Assembly (NCBI RefSeq): GCF_030408395.1
Contig: NZ_CP046980.1
Coordinates: 1,054,001 to 1,118,000 of the forward strand
From: Corynebacterium aquatimens
GTDB lineage: Bacteria > Actinomycetota > Actinomycetes > Mycobacteriales > Mycobacteriaceae
DNA: 64,000 bases
Direction: 5' to 3'
Translations under genes and position numbers: made by a program
Notes under the pieces: model-generated
Told to the model about the DNA's origin: nothing
Seen by the model: only the letters and a program-made list of their open reading frames with translations
The model's database searches: none
Shown: positions 19,551-62,973 of the stretch, one piece after another
Numbering within the stretch: position 1 is the first letter of the stretch
How the letters are laid out: each line of letters starts with the position of its first letter

Positions 19551-19628
19551 CTGACGATGTTGACACATCCCGGTCGCCGACCTGGGATTTTAGAGCCGCG
19601 CCGGGGCCAGAATGGTCAGCATCGTCAG
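19551..19628. repeat. 78-bp inverted-repeat-ended element, copy A
   Basis: It begins CTGACGATGTTGACA and ends GTCAGCATCGTCAG. The ends are inverted copies with one mismatch over 14 bases. It is about 88% identical to copy B, and both are preceded by GGAATC. Confidence 0.85.
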
Positions 19629-19684
19629 CCGCGACGCGCAGAGGCGCGGCGGGGCGCGACGGAATGGACCGGCGGCGAGGAATC

Positions 19685-19762
19685 CTGACGATGCTGACAC
19701 CTCCCGGACGCCGACCTGGGGTTTCAGGGCCGCGTGGGGGCCAGAATGGTCAGCATCGTCAG
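19685..19762. repeat. 78-bp inverted-repeat-ended element, copy B
   Basis: It begins CTGACGATGCTGAC and ends GTCAGCATCGTCAG, a perfect 14-bp terminal inverted repeat. The interior matches copy A (CGCCGACCTGGG, GGGGCCAGAATG). The termini also match the 109-bp elements at 27161-27513, but the interior does not. Confidence 0.85.
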
Positions 19763-19809
19763 TGGCGCTGCGGCGGCGGGGTCCGGCGGCGGGGTGAGGT
19801 GAGGCGGGG

Positions 19810-20847
19810 CTAGGCGTGGTGCTGGGCGAAATCCCAGGCGTCGCGCACGATCGTCGTGATGTCGGTGCGCGTGGGGTTCCAGCCGAGCTCGTTCTTGATG
19901 CGTTCTGAAGACGCGATGAGAACCGCCGGGTCGCCGGCGCGGCGCGGGGCGACGACAGCGGGGATCTCGTGGCCGGTGACTTCGCGGCACGTTTCCACGA
20001 CCTCGCGGACCGAATAACCGGAGCCGGACCCGAGATTGTAAATTGCGTGCCGGCCCGGGGTGTTTGCCTCGAGTGCGAGTACGTGGGCGTCAGCTAGATC
20101 GCGGATGTGGATGTAATCGCGAATGCAGGTGCCATCCGGTGTTGGCCAGTCGTCGCCGAACATGGAGATGGAGTCCCGCTGGCCCAGGGCGACCTGGAGG
20201 ACGATCGGGATCAGGTGTGTCTCGGTGGCGTGGCGCTCGCCGAAGCCGCCGTAGGCGCCGGCGACGTTGAAGTAGCGCAGGCTCGTGGCGCCAAGACCAT
20301 AGGCGTTGCAGTAGGACGTGATCGCGTAATCGATCGCTAGTTTCGTTGCGCCGTAGGGGTTCGTTGGGCGAGTCGGGGTGTCCTCGGTGATCGGGACTTG
20401 CTCAGGCTCGCCGTATGTTGCTGCGGTCGAGGAAAACACCAGCGAGTTCACGCCGTGGGTACGCATGGAGTTGAGCAAGAACAACGACGTTTCGAAGTTG
20501 TCGCGCCAGTACTCGTGGGGGACGTCGACGGACTCGCCAACAAGGGAACGAGCCGCGAAGTGGATGACGCCGTCGACTGCGTCGCCATTGGTGGGGGCTA
20601 GGACGTCATCGATGACGTCGCGGATGTGGCCCTCAACCAACGTCGCGCCGGGAGCGACAGCGTCGCGGTTACCGGTGGAGAAATCATCCACAACCGTGAC
20701 ATCGTGGCCAAGGTCCACCAAGACCTTCGTACACACGCTACCGACGTAGCCGGCGCCGCCGGTCACGACGAGTTTTTTCGGCTCCCCAGCAGATGCGGGG
20801 GAGTCGGTGGAAGGCTGGTTAGCAGAAGGCGTTGCAGAATCACTCAC
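19810..20847 (-). CDS. galE: UDP-glucose 4-epimerase GalE
   Basis: GalE interconverts UDP-glucose and UDP-galactose, supplying galactan for the arabinogalactan cell wall. The 345-aa product has a Rossmann NAD site GGAGYVGS (about residue 30), the catalytic Ser/Thr in FSSTAATYG and the YxxxK pair in NPYGATK. The first 23 residues are a Ser/Pro/Ala-rich extension not usual for the family; no strong ribosome site supports a later start. It lies three bases after dtxR, forming a dtxR-galE operon as in C. glutamicum. Confidence 0.95.
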
Positions 20848-20850
20848 GCT

Positions 20851-21648
20851 TTACGACGATACGCGGATTGCGTGCGCCAGATCGTGGGACAGCTCGATTT
20901 CGTGGCCATCGTCGGAGGCGAGGCGGATCATGCCGCGCTCATCCTCGTCGATGGTGACTGTTAGTCCAAGGTGGAAGCCTAGGCGTGAGATGGAGGTGTA
21001 CTGCTCGGAGTCGAGCTGCAGGATCTCGTTGATCTGGACGATCGTTGCGCGAACCGGCTGGCTCAAATCCAAGTCGCTGACGCGCTGGCCGAGATTCTCC
21101 GGCGTTGCGTGACTGCCGTCCGCGGCACCGATCTCGCCGCCGGCGTCTGCCTCGCCGGCGGCACTGTTCCCGCTGGCGGCGTTTGCCTCGCCGGCGCCGC
21201 CGTTCTCGCTGGCGGCGCCGGGCACGCTCGATTGCAGATCGTTCAACCCCGGGATCGGGTTGCCGAAGGGGGAGCGGGTCGGGTCATCGAGAACGGCCAC
21301 GACGCGGCGCTCAACCTCGTCGCTCATGACGTGTTCCCACCGGCATGCCTCGGCGTGGACTTTGGTGATGTCCATCTTCAAAACGTCGGTAAGCAAGCGC
21401 TCTGCGAGGCGATGTTTGCGCATGACTGCGGTGGCGACTTCGCGGCCGCGTTCCGTCAGCGACAGGGAGCGGTCGCGCTCGACGACGATGAGGCCGTCGC
21501 GTTCCATGCGCGCCACGGTCTGGGAGACGGTGGGGCCGGATTGGTCGAGGCGCTCGGCGATGCGGGCGCGGAGAGGGATGATGCCCTCTTCTTCGAGCTC
21601 ATAAACCGTGCGGAGGTACATCTCAGTAGTGTCAACGAGATCTCTCAC
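20851..21648 (-). CDS. dtxR: Iron-dependent repressor DtxR with extended linker
   Basis: DtxR represses iron uptake and toxin genes when loaded with Fe2+. The GTG at 21648 gives [20 protein letters not shown], aligned with the C. diphtheriae start, with GAGGAG eight bases upstream. Helix-turn-helix [12 protein letters not shown] and metal-site residues in [12 protein letters not shown] are intact, and the SH3-like domain ([13 protein letters not shown]) is present. The product is 265 aa against about 226 in C. diphtheriae; the extra 39 or so residues are a Gly/Ala/Glu-rich insert in the linker before the SH3-like domain. It precedes galE. Confidence 0.95.
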
Positions 21649-21758
21649 AGTGGTACTCCTCATTCGGTTCTGGGGGCGATATCGGGTTAAACGACATATA
21701 TGGTATCCGCATGCCGTGGAGTTGCGGTGGTCCAAAGAGGAAAGATCCACCGAACGGT

Positions 21759-21786
21759 TGACCCTCCGCTGTAGGGAGGGAGTCTC
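21759..21786 (-). terminator. Hairpin downstream of sigB
   Basis: GACCCTCC-N5-GGGAGGGAGTC forms a strong stem just after the sigB coding region in the sigB reading direction. The T-run is short, so it may only partly separate sigB from dtxR. Confidence 0.5.
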
Positions 21787-21812
21787 GGGTACGGAAGAAC
21801 GGCCCCGCGGGA

Positions 21813-22817
21813 TTACATTGCGTAGTCGCGGAGGCGGTCTGCGCGTTCGCCGACGCGCAGTTTGCTCATCACTTCGCGTTCGATTTGGCGGACGCGCTCG
21901 CGGGACAGGCCGAACTCGCGTCCGATCTGGTCGAGTGTGCGCGGCACGCCGTCGTCGAGACCGTAGCGCAGGCGGATCACGTCCTGTTCGCGTTGCTCAA
22001 GGCCGTTGATGATGTCGTGGATGTCATCGTGGCGCAGGACGGAGACAACTGCATCCTCGGCGTCGGCGGCCTCAGCGTCTTCGATGAAGTCACCCAGCGG
22101 GGCCTCCTCATCGGCGCCGACCGGCATGTCCAAGCTCACTGGGTCGCGGGACTGGCGCAGGAGCATTTCAATCTTGGACTCTTCGATGCCGGATTCCTCG
22201 GCCAGTTCCTCGTTCGTGGGTTCGCGGCCAAGGGACTGGTACATCTCGCGGCGGATGCGGGAGAGCTTGTTCACCTGCTCCACGAGGTGGACTGGGAGGC
22301 GGATCGTGCGGGACTGGTCGGCCATACCGCGGGTGATTGCCTGGCGGATCCACCAGGTTGCGTAGGTGGAGAACTTAAAGCCCTTTGCGTAATCGAACTT
22401 CTCCATGGCGCGGATCAGGCCCAGGTTCCCTTCCTGGATGAGGTCCAGCAGCGGCATGCCGCGGCCGGTGTAGCGCTTGGCCAAAGAAACCACCAGGCGC
22501 AGGTTCGCCTCAAGCAGGTGGGCGCGTGCTTTACGGCCTTGCTTGGCCAAGATCTTCAGGTCACGCTTTTTCGCGCGGGTCAGGTGCGTGTCCGGATCAT
22601 CCAGCAGGTGTTGGGCGTAGAGGCCCACCTCAATGGTTTGGGCCAGTTCTACCTCTTCCTCGGCGTTGAGCAGGGCGGTCTTGCCGATGCCGTTGAGGTA
22701 CACACGGACCAAGTCCGCGGACGGGTTGTCATTCGTCTGATTGCGGCGTGAGCCAGGATCTACTTTTTCCTCGGCTTCCTCAGCGCCTGCCACTGGATTC
22801 ACATCCGGTTGAGTCAT
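21813..22817 (-). CDS. sigB: RNA polymerase sigma factor SigB
   Basis: This group 2 (non-essential primary-like) sigma factor is used in general stress and the transition to stationary phase. The 334-aa product starts at the ATG at 22817 (MTQPDVNP) with AGGAGG six bases upstream. Region 1.2 is [17 protein letters not shown], region 2 is [20 protein letters not shown] followed by [13 protein letters not shown], and the region 4 helix-turn-helix is [20 protein letters not shown]. It lacks the long N-terminal tail of SigA. A SigH-like promoter is visible upstream. Confidence 0.95.
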
Positions 22818-22938
22818 ATGAGGCCTCCTACAATCATTCACAGAGCCGTCCGGTTCGATTCGGCTGTTGAGACCGTCCGGACCTTCTACACCTTTTAAGC
22901 CGCGCGGTCCCCGTATGAGTAACCGCTAACAACCTTCT

Positions 22939-22965
22939 AACGCGGAACACTATCAGTTTGTTCCC
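22939..22965 (-). promoter_or_regulatory. Candidate SigH-type promoter of sigB
   Basis: On the minus strand GGGAAC (22965-22960) is followed after 18 bases by GTT (22941-22939). This matches the GGAA(T/C)-N17-18-(C/T)GTT pattern of stress sigma H promoters, and sigB is a known SigH target in C. glutamicum. Confidence 0.5.
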
Positions 22966-23013
22966 ACCGCCGAGTAGGTTCGGTAGTTATTCCGTACTTA
23001 TCTTGCCAAATCG

Positions 23014-24513
23014 TTATTTCAGCAGGTCATCCGGGATGATAAAGCCGTGACGTATGAGGTCTGCTAGAGCTTCTGTGGCCTGGAGTGCAAGAGTTCCAGT
23101 GTCACTCACGGCATCGTGTGCGCATCCCCACAGCTCCACCACATCTTCCAGGGGGAGCCCATTGGGGTGAAGCCCGGAAACGATCGCAGCGAGTGCGTCA
23201 TCTACCTCGCGGCTAAAGCGCGGTCCTTCGGTCCGGGTGAGTCGTTTTACGGTCGGGGCAAATCCCATGCCGGAGGTTTCGTCGCTAAGCGAAATGTCCT
23301 CCAACGCCACGCCAGGGCGCACTGCGTAACGGGCTGAAAGCATGTCCGTCGCATTGACGCCACGCAGCCACCCGACGCGCGTGAAGAAATCCTCAACCTC
23401 TGGCCCCAGCGGATCGGTGAACGGGTGGGAGAGATCGTTGGTGTAGACCTCAGACGGTTCGTCCCCAATCGCGCGGAGGAACACCCAGCCGAAGCCAATC
23501 CCCGTGACGCCGGCTTCCTCAAAGTGGTCAAGCCACCGCTGGGTCCGCTCGATTCCCTCGGGGCTGCGCAGGTCAATGCTTTCATCCTTCAACCACGTGG
23601 AGACGTACATCCCAGGGTCCACCACGTCACGCTGGCAGACCCACGCGCTCACGCTTGACGACGGAACCCACGACGCAACCCGGTTCTCCCACGGGCTGTC
23701 AGCAGTGTGGATCCACGAGGCCAAGATGAAGGCGGTGCCGCCCTCATCGAGGTACTCCGGGGCTGTGCTTACCACCAGCGCACTGGCGTCGTCCAGGTTC
23801 AACCCAGAGTCCCGGTAGACGTGACCGACGTCCGGCAGACCCACGACGAATGGGGGATTGGCCACGATCCTGTCAAAGGTCTCTCCCGCCACCGGTTCGA
23901 ACCAGCTGCCCTGGCGCAGCTCGACGTTGGTCACGCCGTTGGCAGCCATGGTCGCCTCAGCCAGTTCAATCGCGCGCGGGTGCACATCGGTGGCGATCAC
24001 CGACTCGGCGACGCGTGCCTGCGCGAGCGCCTGCACGCCCGACCCAGTGCCCAGGTCCAACACGCGCCGGGCAGGGGACAGCGGGGTCGCCGACAGAAGC
24101 GACAAGCTAGCAGCGCCGACCCCCAAGACGTGGTCAGGGCCGGGGACGATATCTGTCATCGATGCATCCAAGTCCGAGATCACCAGATGTTCCTGTCCAG
24201 CGATGACGTGGGGGCGGATGTCGAAGGCGGGGCGGGCGAGGGAGTCGTCGATAAGCGAAAAGTGCTCTAGGTGCGGAACATCCGCGAGCTGACTGACGGG
24301 CGTGGGCTCGCGGAGGATGAAAAACGCGATGAGGCGCGAAAGCGTCGAGTCATCGCGCAGCGAGTGCTTAACCACGCCGGGCTCCCCGCGGTAGAGCGCC
24401 GCGGTGGCGTCGGGGCCGAGGTGGGCGGCGATGGAATCGGCGGTGAAACCCTCCGCGACCAGGTAGGAAGCTAGCTCGCGCGCGGCGTTGGGCAGGGGGC
24501 TACTCGTCCTCAT
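23014..24513 (-). CDS. Class I SAM-dependent methyltransferase
   Basis: The 499-aa product has an N-terminal helical domain (about residues 1-120), a Rossmann methyltransferase core with motif I LDLGTGSGVQAL and motif IV NPPF (in IVANPPFVVG), and a long C-terminal region. NPPF indicates methylation of an amide or exocyclic amine nitrogen, as in RsmC/PrmC-like and N6-adenine enzymes; the substrate is unknown. The start at 24513 (MRTSSPLP) overlaps the DUF3099 stop by 14 bases. One 11-mer copy encodes SLIDDS. Confidence 0.85.
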   Translation of the reverse strand: MRTSSPLPNAARELASYLVAEGFTADSIAAHLGPDATAALYRGEPGVVKHSLRDDSTLSRLIAFFILREPTPVSQLADVPHLEHFSLIDDSLARPAFDIRPHVIAGQEHLVISDLDASMTDIVPGPDHVLGVGAASLSLLSATPLSPARRVLDLGTGSGVQALAQARVAESVIATDVHPRAIELAEATMAANGVTNVELRQGSWFEPVAGETFDRIVANPPFVVGLPDVGHVYRDSGLNLDDASALVVSTAPEYLDEGGTAFILASWIHTADSPWENRVASWVPSSSVSAWVCQRDVVDPGMYVSTWLKDESIDLRSPEGIERTQRWLDHFEEAGVTGIGFGWVFLRAIGDEPSEVYTNDLSHPFTDPLGPEVEDFFTRVGWLRGVNATDMLSARYAVRPGVALEDISLSDETSGMGFAPTVKRLTRTEGPRFSREVDDALAAIVSGLHPNGLPLEDVVELWGCAHDAVSDTGTLALQATEALADLIRHGFIIPDDLLK

Positions 24514-24955
24514 AATGGTCGATCGTACCCTCGGGGTGGGTGCTCGACGGCGAGTCGATCGCACGCGCACGGGCGGCCTCGAGCTCCGCCGCCATCTGCT
24601 GCCGCGCGACCGCGGGCTTGTAGACATTCTTCGTGCGCTTGTCCCGCTTTTCGCCTTGACCATTGGCGATGACCACCGAAATCCACGGCAGCGGGATCGA
24701 AATGGAGAAGAACAACGCGCCAAGCCACCAGTTGTTCCAGATCATGATGCACGCAATGGACAAAATGATCAGCGGCACGCGCACGCCCTGCCAGAACAAG
24801 TACTTCCTCTGCCGCGACTGGCGGCTTTGACCCGGCGCCTGACGCGCGTCTGTGATGAGTTCGCTCGAGCGCTTGCGCAAGCTCATGCGGCGGTGCGGGC
24901 GGGACTCGACCGGGTCGTGCTCCAAATCTCCCGTGAACTCCCGTGATGCCGCCAT
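24500..24955 (-). CDS. DUF3099 membrane protein
   Basis: The 151-aa product has a basic N-terminus with SSELITDARQAPG, two membrane helices (about residues 57-76 and 78-97, VPLIILSIACIMIWNN and WLGALFFSISIPLPWISVVI) and a charged C-terminal tail. This is the DUF3099 architecture of actinobacteria; function unknown. It is the first gene of an operon with the methyltransferase and divergent from the DUF3039 gene. Confidence 0.85.
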   Translation of the reverse strand: MAASREFTGDLEHDPVESRPHRRMSLRKRSSELITDARQAPGQSRQSRQRKYLFWQGVRVPLIILSIACIMIWNNWWLGALFFSISIPLPWISVVIANGQGEKRDKRTKNVYKPAVARQQMAAELEAARARAIDSPSSTHPEGTIDHYEDE

Positions 24956-25004
24956 AACTCACAAGCGTAGACCTGTGGCTAGGCCTAGGGCTAACCAATA
25001 GGGC

Positions 25005-25259
25005 ATGATGGACCCCGTGACTACGCCATCCACCACAACGATTGAACGGCCCGACATCCGCGAAGATTCAACCACGGATGACGGCACCCCGAAGTTCTTC
25101 CACTACGTGAAAAAAGACCAGATCGTTGACTCCGCGGTGAGCGGAAAAATGGTTGTTGCACTGTGTGGAGAGACGTTTCCCGTGACCAAGCAGGCCAAGC
25201 CCGGATCGCCGGTCTGCCCGGACTGTGAGCGAATCTACAAGGGGCTGCGTCGCCGGTGA
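25005..25259 (+). CDS. DUF3039 protein, small zinc-ribbon-like
   Basis: The 84-aa product ends in a pattern with CGETFPVTKQAKPGSPVCPDC, where three Cys could bind a metal, and the family motif FFHYVKKDQI. Starts at 25005, 25008 and GTG 25017 are possible; TAACCA followed by seven bases and the ATG at 25005 suggests a leaderless message. Its stop overlaps the GTG start of the next helicase gene (GTGA), so the two are translationally coupled. The function of DUF3039 is unknown. Confidence 0.82.
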   Translation: MMDPVTTPSTTTIERPDIREDSTTDDGTPKFFHYVKKDQIVDSAVSGKMVVALCGETFPVTKQAKPGSPVCPDCERIYKGLRRR

Positions 25260-27079
25260 CCTCAACCCCATCCGGGCCGACTAACGGGTCCGCTGGGCCT
25301 TCTCTACGCCAATGGCAGCAGGAGGCCCTTGATTTATTCATGGCCTCCACGCCGCGAGACTTCATGGCCGTGGCGACCCCGGGCGCCGGTAAAACCACGT
25401 TCGCGCTAACACTGGCGTCGCAACTGGTGGCGCAGCGCGTGGTGGAGCGCGTCATCGTGGTCGTGCCTACTGAACACCTCAAAATCCAGTGGGCAGGCGC
25501 CGCGGCCAACTTTGGCCTCATGCTTGACCCAAAGTTCACCAACGCATCCGCCGTCAACCCTGCCTACGACGGGATCGTGGTCACCTACGCCCAGGTGGGA
25601 ATGCACCCCTTCAAACACCACGCGGTCGCCCAAGCCCGCCGCACGCTAGTGATCCTGGATGAGATCCACCACGCCGGTGATGCAAAAAGCTGGGGCGACG
25701 GCGTACGCGAGGCATACGGCGACGTGGAACACCGTTTAGCTCTGACCGGCACGCCGTTTCGCTCGGACGATTCAGCGATCCCCTTTGTCCGGTACGAAGA
25801 GGACGGGGAGGGGCATTTGGTGTCCCGCTCCGACTACACCTACGGCTACGCGGAAGCGTTGAAAGACAAAGTCGTGCGACCCGTGGTGTTCCTTGCCTAC
25901 TCGGGGGAGGCCCAGTGGCGCGATTCCGCGGGTGAGGAGTACGCCGCCCGCTTAGGCGAGCCACTCAACGCCGAACAAACCGCCCGCGCCTGGCGCACCG
26001 CACTGGACCCCAAAGGCGATTGGATGAAGGCCGTGCTCACCGCCGCCCACACGCGCCTTCAGAAAGTCCGCGCCCACGTGCCGGATGCCGGTGGCCTGGT
26101 TATCGCCACCGACAAAACCACCGCCCGCGCGTACGCACGCTTGCTGTCGCAGATCAGCTCCACCCCCGTCACCACAGTGCTTAGCGACGAAGTCGGGGCC
26201 TCCAAGCGCATCGACGACTTCTCCGCTTCCACCGACGAGTGGATGGTGGCCGTGCGCATGGTCTCCGAAGGGGTGGACGTGCCCCGCCTCTCCGTGGGCG
26301 TATATGCCACTTCCGCCTCGACGCCGCTATTTTTCGCCCAGGCCATCGGCCGTTTCGTTCGGTCACGCCGCCCCGGCGAATCGGCGTCTATCTTCCTGCC
26401 CTCCGTGCCCGTTTTGCTACGCCTAGCCGAGGAAATGGAAACCTCGCGCGACCACGTCCTGGGCAAACCAGACCGTCCCGAAGGCTGGTCCGACGAACTC
26501 ATCGAGCAAGCCAACCGGGAACAAAACGAACCCGACGCCGAACCCAACTACCAAGCCATCGGTGCCTCCGCCGAACTCGATTCCCTGATCTTCGACGGCT
26601 CCACCTACGGCACCGCCACCTTCGCCGGCACCGAAGAAGAACAGGATTACCTAGGCCTTCCCGGCCTCCTCGACGCCGACCAGGTAAAAACCCTTCTGCA
26701 AAAGCGCCAGTCCGAGCAACTCGATGCCCGCGCCGCCGCCGCTGCCGGTGCCGCCGGTGCCGCCGCTGCCGCCGCGCACCCCGGCACACCCCACACCATC
26801 ACCCCAGGGTCCGGCACCGCCACCCCCGGCGCAGCCGCCCCCGGCACCGCCGGCTCAACCGCCTTCACCCCTGGCGCCCCCTCCAACGACCCCGCCGTCG
26901 ACAACATTCCGGCTCTTCGCTCCGAGCTCAACGCGCGCGTGGCCATAGCCGCTTCCAGTAGCGGCCGTCCTCATGGTGCAATCCACAACGAAGTCCGCAA
27001 AGCCTGCGGCGGACCCCCAACTGCACTCTGCAACGCGGAGCAGCTCCGCGAACGCATCGCCTACCTGCGCAATTGGTAA
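25256..27079 (+). CDS. SF2 DEAD/DEAH-box helicase
   Basis: The 607-aa product has Walker A ATPGAGKTTFA, motif II in VILDEIHHAGD, motif III-like LTGTPFRSD and motif VI QAIGRFVRSR, resembling type III restriction/XPB-like helicases. A low-complexity Ala/Gly/Pro/Thr tract (about residues 485-545) separates the motor from a C-terminal domain ending in HGAIHNEVRKACGGPPTA. That tail recurs in actinobacterial helicases next to DUF3039. The substrate is unknown. It converges on sigA across the 122-bp tandem array. Confidence 0.9.
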   Translation: MTSTPSGPTNGSAGPSLRQWQQEALDLFMASTPRDFMAVATPGAGKTTFALTLASQLVAQRVVERVIVVVPTEHLKIQWAGAAANFGLMLDPKFTNASAVNPAYDGIVVTYAQVGMHPFKHHAVAQARRTLVILDEIHHAGDAKSWGDGVREAYGDVEHRLALTGTPFRSDDSAIPFVRYEEDGEGHLVSRSDYTYGYAEALKDKVVRPVVFLAYSGEAQWRDSAGEEYAARLGEPLNAEQTARAWRTALDPKGDWMKAVLTAAHTRLQKVRAHVPDAGGLVIATDKTTARAYARLLSQISSTPVTTVLSDEVGASKRIDDFSASTDEWMVAVRMVSEGVDVPRLSVGVYATSASTPLFFAQAIGRFVRSRRPGESASIFLPSVPVLLRLAEEMETSRDHVLGKPDRPEGWSDELIEQANREQNEPDAEPNYQAIGASAELDSLIFDGSTYGTATFAGTEEEQDYLGLPGLLDADQVKTLLQKRQSEQLDARAAAAAGAAGAAAAAAHPGTPHTITPGSGTATPGAAAPGTAGSTAFTPGAPSNDPAVDNIPALRSELNARVAIAASSSGRPHGAIHNEVRKACGGPPTALCNAEQLRERIAYLRNW

Positions 27080-27160
27080 CACAACCCTTCCATCTTCGGT
27101 CGTCCCGGCCCTTAGCCCGCTCCTTCGTCCCCGGCTGGCTCCACCCGACAGCTGCCCGTC

Positions 27161-27269
27161 CTGACGATGTTGACACCCCTGCCACCTATGCACAATGTTG
27201 AATGTTTTTGACCTTGGTGTATGGCGGCACAGGAATATGTCGATGCGTCACTGATGTCATCATCGTCAG
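27161..27269. repeat. 109-bp inverted-repeat-ended element, copy C
   Basis: It begins CTGACGATGTTGACACC and ends GTCATCATCGTCAG. The interior contains TTGACCTTGGTGTATGGCGG and GGAATATGTCGATGCGTCAC. The ends are inverted over 14 bases with one mismatch. Confidence 0.88.
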
Positions 27270-27282
27270 GGCCAGTGGCTGG

Positions 27283-27391
27283 CTGACGATGTTGACACCG
27301 CTGCCACCCATGCGCGCAGTTGAATGTTTATGACCTTGGTGTATGGCGGCTCAGGAATATGTCGATGCGTCACTGATGTCAACATCGTCAG
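27283..27391. repeat. 109-bp inverted-repeat-ended element, copy D
   Basis: It starts exactly 122 bases after copy C. The terminal repeat CTGACGATGTTGAC/GTCAACATCGTCAG is perfect over 14 bp. The interior differs from copy C at only a few positions. Confidence 0.88.
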
Positions 27392-27404
27392 GACCAGTGG
27401 TTGG

Positions 27405-27513
27405 CTGATGATGTTGACACCGCTGCCACCCATGCACAACGTTGAATGTTTATGACCTTGGTGTATGGCGGCTCAGGAATATGTCGATGCGTCACTGATG
27501 TCAACATCGTCAG
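27405..27513. repeat. 109-bp inverted-repeat-ended element, copy E
   Basis: It starts 122 bases after copy D, with CTGATGATGTTGAC at the left end (one change) and GTCAACATCGTCAG at the right. The 13-base spacer GACCAGTGGCTGG follows, then CTGACGACGT of a truncated fourth copy. Confidence 0.88.
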
Positions 27514-27615
27514 GACCAGTGGCTGGCTGACGACGTATCCACCGCAGGAGCCGCGCGGGAAGGGCAATAGGAAACCCCCGGGACGGAAAATCCTAGGGGT
27601 GGGGAGACCTTGGGG

Positions 27616-61896: not shown

Positions 61897-62973
61897 ATGT
61901 CGGACGTAGAGAAGACCGAGTTTGAGCTCCCCGCGGATCTTGCGCGCCAGATTGATTCACCGATTGATGCCAATGAGCAGGTGGAAGAGCGCGATGTGGA
62001 AAAGACTCTGCGCCCGAAATCGATCGAAGAATTCATCGGTCAGCCGAAGGTGCGTGAGCAGCTGAGCTTGGTCTTAACCGGTGCGAAGCGGCGTGGGGTA
62101 ACGCCTGACCACATTCTGCTGTCTGGTCCCCCGGGGTTGGGTAAGACCACGATGGCGATGATCATTGCCCAAGAACTTGGCACTTCTTTGCGCATGACGT
62201 CGGGCCCTGCGCTGGAGCGCGCGGGGGACTTGGCTGCGATGCTATCGAACCTCATGGAGGGTGACGTGCTCTTCATTGATGAGATTCACCGTATTGCGCG
62301 GCCGGCGGAAGAAATGCTCTATATGGCGATGGAAGACTTCCGGATTGATGTGATCGTGGGCAAGGGGCCCGGTGCGACGTCGATCCCGCTGGAGATCCCG
62401 CCTTTTACCCTTGTGGGCGCCACCACGCGCGCGGGAATGCTGACTGGTCCGCTGCGTGACCGTTTTGGGTTTACCGCGCAAATGGAATTTTATGATGTCG
62501 CGGATCTGACCAAGGTGGTAACGCGTGCGGCGTCAATCCTGGACGTGGACATTGACCCCGATGCCGCGGTGGAGATCGCGTCACGCTCCCGGGGCACGCC
62601 GCGTATTGCCAACCGACTGCTGCGTCGCGTGCGTGACTGGGCTGACGTGAATGGCGATGGGCGAGTAACGTTGACCGCGGCACGTGAGGCGCTTGACGTC
62701 TTTGACGTGGATGAGCTGGGGCTGGACCGACTGGACCGCGCGGTGCTTGACTCCTTGATTCGAAGCCACTCCGGCGGGCCTGTGGGTGTGAACACCCTGG
62801 CCATTGCGGTGGGGGAGGAACCCTCCACCGTGGAGGAAGTATGCGAGCCCTACTTGGTCCGCGCTGGTCTCATGGCGCGCACGGGTCGCGGCCGCGTGGC
62901 AACAGCCGCTGCGTGGCAGCACCTTGGAATCACCCCGCCACCGGAAGCGCCGGGGCAATTGAACTTGCTCTAG
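61897..62973 (+). CDS. ruvB: Holliday junction branch migration ATPase RuvB
   Basis: This 358-aa AAA+ hexameric motor drives branch migration. Walker [12 protein letters not shown], Walker [10 protein letters not shown], sensor 1 GATTRAGML and the arginine-finger GPLRDRFG are present, followed by a winged helix. The 56-base gap from ruvA fits the ruvCAB operon. Confidence 0.97.

Follow-up and report, generated by a model that had tools for sequence, protein, structure and literature searches.

The window analysed here is a stretch of 64,000 nucleotides of Corynebacterium aquatimens (G000:C1:1054001-1118000, G000 being the 2,524,396-bp genome that holds it), and it carries two families of short repeats with inverted ends, each in a gap between convergent genes. 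A sequence-only reading had described a 78-bp pair and a 109-bp trio, and both were found exactly at the positions that it gave. Elements 1 and 2 (19551..19628 and 19685..19762) lie between genes for a DUF4192 protein and an NAD-dependent epimerase, and elements 3, 4 and 5 (27161..27269, 27283..27391 and 27405..27513) between genes for a ResIII/DEAD helicase and a sigma-70 factor, all five on the plus strand. Sequence inspection confirmed that the 14-bp inverted ends, hereafter arms, are common to pair and trio, with single changes in two of the trio ends (CTGACGATGATGAC and CTGATGATGTTGAC, the latter being the left arm of element 5). In element 1, the left arm CTGACGATGTTGAC occupies 19551..19564 on the plus strand and the right arm 19615..19628 on the minus strand. 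The arm distance is 64 in elements 1 and 2 and 95 in elements 3 to 5. A degenerate left arm, CTGACGACGTATCC, read by eye at 27527..27540 on the plus strand, follows the trio and may be what is left of a fourth unit.

The two families had been thought to share nothing inside their ends, and here we had to depart from the earlier account. Both contain a short GACCT core, at an offset of 28 in the pair and of 49 in the trio, and the two offsets differ by two helical turns. On the plus strand, the core lies at 19579..19593 in element 1 (GACCTGGGATTTTAG), at 19713..19727 in element 2 (GACCTGGGGTTTCAG) and, as GACCTTGG, at 27210..27217, 27332..27339 and 27454..27461 in elements 3, 4 and 5. The left half of the trio also aligns with 94/95-type (49-class) elements at other loci of the genome (CATAAG..GTTTTTGACCT).

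Indeed, the termini are not confined to the two gaps of the window, a confinement that the sequence-only reading had named as its own refutation. The exact arm CTGACGATGYTGAC occurs in 39 copies in G000 (17+22), and its reversed control in none. A looser rule applied to the whole genome, CTGA-N6-TGAC facing its inverse at an arm distance of 54-115, gave 40 paired elements at 24 loci (loci counted by hand), once alternative pairings at distances of 72, 103 and 111, which come from iterated arms, had been removed; looser elements near 162.7, 301, 1876.5, 1891.2, 2166.55 and 2334.1 kb were excluded from the counts. Every one of the 39 exact arms belongs to a paired element: 38 fall in the 40 strict elements and one in a looser copy. 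Some elements have arms iterated with a 9-bp period, and in many copies the ends are extended by about 3 bp outward, as (A/G)TC-CTGAC...GTCAG-GA(T/C). Incidentally, at about 161.2-162.7 kb (L040) we noticed an apparent insertion sequence within one element, with arm-like remains on either side.

The core proved to be the most widely shared part. We assembled a set of 54 elements, namely the 40 of G000 and 14 from C. riegelii FDAARGOS_1114 and Corynebacterium sp. HMSC29G08, two carriers found with a relaxed arm and core pattern, several other matches of which look like chance or simple repeats. Within the elements, the asymmetric core reads (C)GACCTGG followed by an A/T run. A perfect (G/C)ACCTG(G/C) was present in 40 of the 54 elements, as compared with 404 of 10800 shuffled spacers, and at least 6 of the 7 positions were matched in 53. 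A profile of the left half of the elements then matched other species via the core alone. The core pattern CGACCTGGGSWWWYG is present in 117 of 242 Corynebacterium genomes, with 58 copies in G211, 42 in G202, 40 in G067, 38 in G020 and 36 in G050, and with at most 2 per genome for its control among the genomes listed; a single match may arise by chance, and some matches fall within genes.

At many of these cores the flanking inverted arms differ widely in sequence, and we call such arm variants dialects. Inverted arms with a score of at least 10 were found at 129 of 230 distinct cores (a number that includes orthologues and array neighbours differing in sequence), as compared with 1 when the flanks were shuffled. 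The exact G000 arm was found in 19 of 150 other Corynebacterium genomes sampled, with a maximum of 2 per genome, and exact G000 arm pairs (inner gap 35-65) had no match in a species collection that perhaps excludes the window's own genome. Beyond Corynebacterium, a search over 401 genomes of the same family led to 20 chosen stretches, 11 of which have strong arms: the genus labelled g8 carries the arm CGTTTTCAGTCATT (G462, G551, G440) and that labelled g3 the arm AGCCGTCACTCCGGT (G297). Arms were absent or weak in the other 9 stretches and in five of five further loci outside Corynebacterium (L304-L308). Lineage-specific arm dialects are a recurrent sequence feature. No description of these elements was found in the titles and abstracts of the open-access literature, the only literature covered, in which sequence strings led to papers that, going by their titles, deal with animals or humans. 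The elements apparently form one undescribed group of short DNA elements in Corynebacterium and two genera of the same family. As a side observation, G000 itself has a second arm dialect around GTCGAGCCGT with the same core, at 62822, 316478, 459971, 577232 and 702605 (L227-L231), the copy at 577232 being a looser variant and the arm at 702605 being iterated.

Next to sequence, the spacing of the three sites mostly followed helical steps. Arm distances in G000 fall at 63-64, 73-75, 85 and 93-95 bp, that is, in steps of about 10.5 bp (n=40, R=0.90 at 10.5 bp). Collapsing the set to 24 locus-classes gave R=0.89, which none of 100000 uniform draws over the range searched (54-115) reached. The core, searched free of any restriction on its offset, behaved alike: 39 unambiguous perfect cores stand 28, 38-39 or 48-49 from the left arm, with one at 51 (R=0.95). 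Among 83 cores with strong arms (score of at least 13), the arm dyad showed an asymmetry about the core of 1-2, 11-12 or 21-23 in 74 by hand count; at the commonest value it falls on the core's CCTGG. Taking one asymmetry value per dialect, we obtained R=0.95 at 10.5 bp for 26 dialects, a rough count obtained by single-linkage clustering, and again none of 100000 uniform draws reached this value. The phasing is not a product of pattern selection, since most of these arms had not entered any search pattern. Three sites, one conserved over the family and two specific to the lineage, stand mostly whole helical turns apart.

From one G000 locus to another, identity is 83-91% for the 16-bp arms (the search itself fixed 8 of 14 arm letters) and 63-74% for an 18-bp window on the core, which the search did not fix. 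Spacers are only 24-36% alike, but the left spacer of the 49-class reaches 73%. Seven G020 loci found via the core alone have arms at identical offsets and unrelated spacers. Together with the phasing across unrelated arms, the fact that arms and core are kept around near-random spacers in two G000 classes and in G020 speaks for protein binding. G020 also contains tandem arrays (L345-L348, L271) with a spacing of 85 bp or multiples thereof and with spacers unrelated between loci; one G020 pair is spaced by 135 bp.

In most elements the arms could form a hairpin, both following one consensus. The variable arm bases showed no significant covariation over 21 loci: position 10 agrees between both arms at 4 of the 21 (shuffle mean 7.0), and the other five variable positions gave no significant excess of agreement, at the low power of 21 loci. 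The variable positions of the two arms of one element are not significantly more alike than those of arms from different elements, and this favours arms that would act as recognition sequences rather than as a stem.

This bears on the possibility that the elements terminate transcription in both directions, or act as RNA hairpins, at the ends of genes, which we consider unlikely. Their gene setting is compatible with such a role, convergent gaps and 3' ends being common. Of the 24 G000 loci, 10 are convergent, 12 tandem and 2 divergent, and 22 lie downstream of at least one gene; these counts are approximate, as they come from a simple open reading frame (ORF) caller read by hand, short ORFs over elements having been set aside by eye. 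Over the loci of many species, armless matches included, 22 are convergent, 22 tandem, 10 divergent, 12 within an ORF and 4 unclassified. Moreover, some cores form a strong hairpin accompanied by a T-run on one strand or on both, for example at 2328445, 472507 and 1589597. However, a GC hairpin with a T-run was present in only 10 of the 54 elements, against 8 of 108 shuffles, which led us to reject intrinsic termination as a general rule; it may hold for a subset. The arms do not covary significantly, an Rfam scan of nine sources returned tRNA matches only and no known RNA family for the elements, and a quantisation of 10.5 bp belongs to duplex DNA. The bidirectional termination suggested by the sequence-only reading hence fits just a minority of elements, and the strict convergent bias that it had weighed as a sign of regulation finds no support in 10 convergent loci out of 24.

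The same gene settings bear on whether the elements are clustered operators of ordinary transcription factors, such as looping repressors of the GalR type acting with HU. Many arms are palindromes or direct repeats and look operator-like, and the succession of operator, central architectural site and operator resembles the gal loop in its geometry. Yet the 10 convergent G000 loci contain no gene start and only 2 loci are divergent; among the 54 classified intergenic loci of many species, some of them armless, 22 are convergent and 10 divergent. No common Pfam family was discerned among the genes beside eight divergent cases. We regard this explanation as very improbable.

The reading that we tentatively place first, at somewhat under an even chance, is that of a looped nucleoprotein site, with a conserved protein on the core and lineage-specific proteins on the arms. 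Each element would be a short piece of duplex DNA made of an inverted arm, an asymmetric core and a second inverted arm. A conserved, probably DNA-bending, putative protein would sit on the core near CCTGG, and a lineage-specific putative protein, perhaps a dimer, on each arm. The arm proteins would meet because all sites lie on one face of a DNA shorter than its persistence length, closing a micro-loop of 6-9 turns (63-95 bp). Tandem elements would then form clusters of loops in intergenic DNA, and such clusters near gene ends could serve as a bidirectional roadblock or as a supercoil or nucleoid (topological) landmark. The arrays might expand and contract through unequal exchange that involves the repeated cores and arms. 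The basis for this last step is a site at which the sister genomes G050 and G202 differ by one unit of about 94 bp, with breakpoints within the repeated core. We also count in favour of the looped site that neighbouring C. riegelii elements are 16 bp apart in all four of the adjacent pairs whose arms next to the gap are exact.

Comparison of these two sister genomes also bears on a close rival, which we see as a real possibility: the elements would be non-autonomous mobile elements, akin to miniature inverted-repeat transposable elements (MITEs) or to REPINs. The arms would be the ends recognised by a transposase or recombinase, the dialects would follow the enzyme, and the core would be a host bending site letting ends 63-95 bp apart synapse, so that the phasing would be a signature of synapsis. 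Length periodicity arising from synapsis has a precedent in the internal eliminated sequences (IESs) of Paramecium, as set out in PMC3408717. Many copies, a patchy presence over species and arm dialects that go with the genome all suit mobility.

The earlier account had proposed to look for empty sites in relatives, and here the two sister species were seen to differ, by gain or by loss, in whole arrays. A three-element array between convergent genes is in G050 and absent from G202, and another such array, directly after a stop codon, is in G202 and absent from G050. These two arrays stand at different loci, and 199 of 274 aligned bases are alike when one is inverted (shuffled 0.37-0.52), the middle element and the linkers matching best, spacers included. 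In L283 (G050) and L293 (G202), the arm dialects alternate A-B-A (A = CACCAnATTCC, B = GTGACAAAGGACGCA-like); these arrays are related and lie at different loci in opposite orientation. For the rest, the number of exact cores was equal at 8 of 13 comparable G050 sites, with flank identities of about 87 to 100%; the stretches had been chosen around model matches, and a comparison was prevented at 2 of the 15 sites by the closeness of a stretch end.

Spacers in G050, G202 and G211 cut both ways. Seven dialect-B elements share theirs clearly (0.78 and 0.58), as copies of a mobile element would, and 30 dialect-A elements are only weakly alike (0.40 left, 0.46 right); in two G000 classes and in G020, the interiors differ between loci. 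No consistent target duplication was found over 54 elements and 36 boundary offsets, where 3-bp matches numbered no more than 4 and 4-bp matches no more than 3. One of the 54 is flanked by a direct repeat of at least 11 bp, which is the array linker, and no duplication was seen by eye at the junction of the G202-only array. Among the G000 arm matches listed, no arm pair enclosed a gene or pointed to an autonomous parent. The Y1 transposase (RAYT, PF01797) is absent from G000, other transposase families not having been searched for, and it occurs in 5 of 242 Corynebacterium genomes, which have no more than 2 core matches each and so are not core-rich. RAYT was therefore rejected as the mover. 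In G544 and G423 (L365-L367), a DDE_Tnp_1 insertion sequence carries CGACCTGGGGTTTTG upstream of its transposase gene and has no arms; we took this core as a coincidence.

Measured against known classes, the elements have the terminal inverted repeats of MITEs, but their copies are alike throughout clearly in dialect B, weakly in dialect A and not in the two G000 classes or G020. They also have the two short inverted arms around a diverse spacer that characterise REPINs. We thus file them under dispersed inverted-repeat elements, outside REPINs because there is no Y1 transposase and outside MITEs because there is no consistent target duplication. Of the two ideas put forward from the sequence alone, a protein-binding palindrome gains from the phasing, while the evidence on mobility is mixed, array presence and absence speaking for it and the lack of a consistent target duplication against it. 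Both can hold together, as a loop site might also spread as a mobile element.

Several observations weigh against the looped nucleoprotein site. We infer both the loop and its effect, and the proteins are putative. No arms were found at score 10 at 101 of the 230 cores, and 125 of the 242 Corynebacterium genomes lack the core pattern, so that any function must be dispensable. One HMSC29G08 element is off step, with an arm distance of 68, and 9 of the 83 strong cores are off phase, at -39, -8 (three, which are off only slightly), 16, 18, 26 (two) and 28. The classes within a genome may go back to few founder events, and the per-element statistics therefore exaggerate how independent the copies are; the test by dialect is only a partial answer, because single-linkage clustering joined some unlike arms. 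Terminator hairpins occur at about 2.5 times the shuffled rate. Finally, the partly shared spacers of G050, G202 and G211, and above all those of dialect B, point to copying and not to site-by-site selection.

The gal loop and the RIB/RIP elements of E. coli are the nearest working analogies for loops built of arm, bending site and arm. RIB/RIP are inverted repetitive extragenic palindromic (REP) sequences around an IHF site, about 100 bp long, at the 3' ends of genes. They are alike in having an architectural protein site between two arms; here it is the core that is conserved, its protein being putative. The sequences are unrelated, and our elements differ in having a quantised spacing and many arm dialects around one core. 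The core is unlike the IHF consensus, and the arms do not resemble tagged REP palindromes. Mycobacterial interspersed repetitive units, from related bacteria, are tandem or dispersed intergenic repeats of 50-100 bp, a likeness by description only, and we know of no arm-core architecture for them.

REPINs and REP sequences, as portrayed in PMC8049555, have two inverted lineage-specific arms, a short diverse spacer, many intergenic copies and local amplification or deletion, and in all these traits they are alike to the elements described here. These, by contrast, hold a conserved phased core, and the Y1 family is absent from G000 and from core-rich genomes. NEMIS/Correia elements are likewise small, intergenic and bounded by inverted repeats, one form having a site for a bending protein, IHF (PMC2229807). 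According to that paper they are mostly A+T-rich, TA-ended and target-duplicating, and we saw none of these features here. Paramecium IESs show a 10-bp periodicity in length, which is attributed to a loop joining the proteins at their two ends (PMC3408717). They differ in being eukaryotic and excised by a domesticated PiggyBac transposase, and the covered part of that source describes no central conserved site.

Taken further, the looped nucleoprotein site could belong to a family-wide micro-loop system, an extension that we find rather doubtful. One architectural protein would read the core and fast-diversifying DNA-binding proteins, one or two per lineage, would read the arms, dialects co-evolving with them under a fixed geometry. 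Such fast-changing dialects would parallel, in bacteria, the rapid evolution of centromere or hotspot recognition, and we know of no equivalent. Whatever their function, the elements tie many intergenic repeats and minisatellites of a large genus, used medically and industrially, into one architecture. They also offer a natural experiment on helical phasing, in which one core and many unrelated arms keep the same whole-turn spacing. If the proteins were found, the elements would stand for a new kind of site at which DNA loops or synapses, and their arm dialects would reveal how the specificity of DNA binding changes in step with its many sites.

Some minor observations concern similar sequences elsewhere. 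The relaxed pattern also matched long near-perfect palindromes in Olsenella/Thermophilibacter (L139-L166), with ends CTGACAAAGGTGAC. Their arm resembles that of C. riegelii, but the architecture differs: there is no phasing, the core is mostly missing, and the inner bases vary yet stay complementary. They are possibly unrelated to the arm-core-arm elements. Records from Phycisphaerae, Paractinoplanes and Roseovarius (L116, L117, L125) contain CTGAC repeats with a 9-bp period facing their inverse; these resemble the iterated G000 arms, probably by chance or without relation. When collections of plasmids and phages were searched with the window pair, weak and scattered matches turned up in 7 plasmids and 1 phage, in every case under annotated genes; a G050 element had no match in the plasmid collection. 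Within the genus, G155 has a tandem array of ten cores with an 83-bp period (L232, G155:C1:2134250-2135350) and arms based on GGTCGACC, a motif that also occurs in G067 arms. In C. riegelii (NZ_CP068159.1, G242:C1), all 33 exact CTGACAAANNTGAC arms lie within 258-1247 kb, that is, within 1.0 Mb of a 2.5-Mb chromosome.

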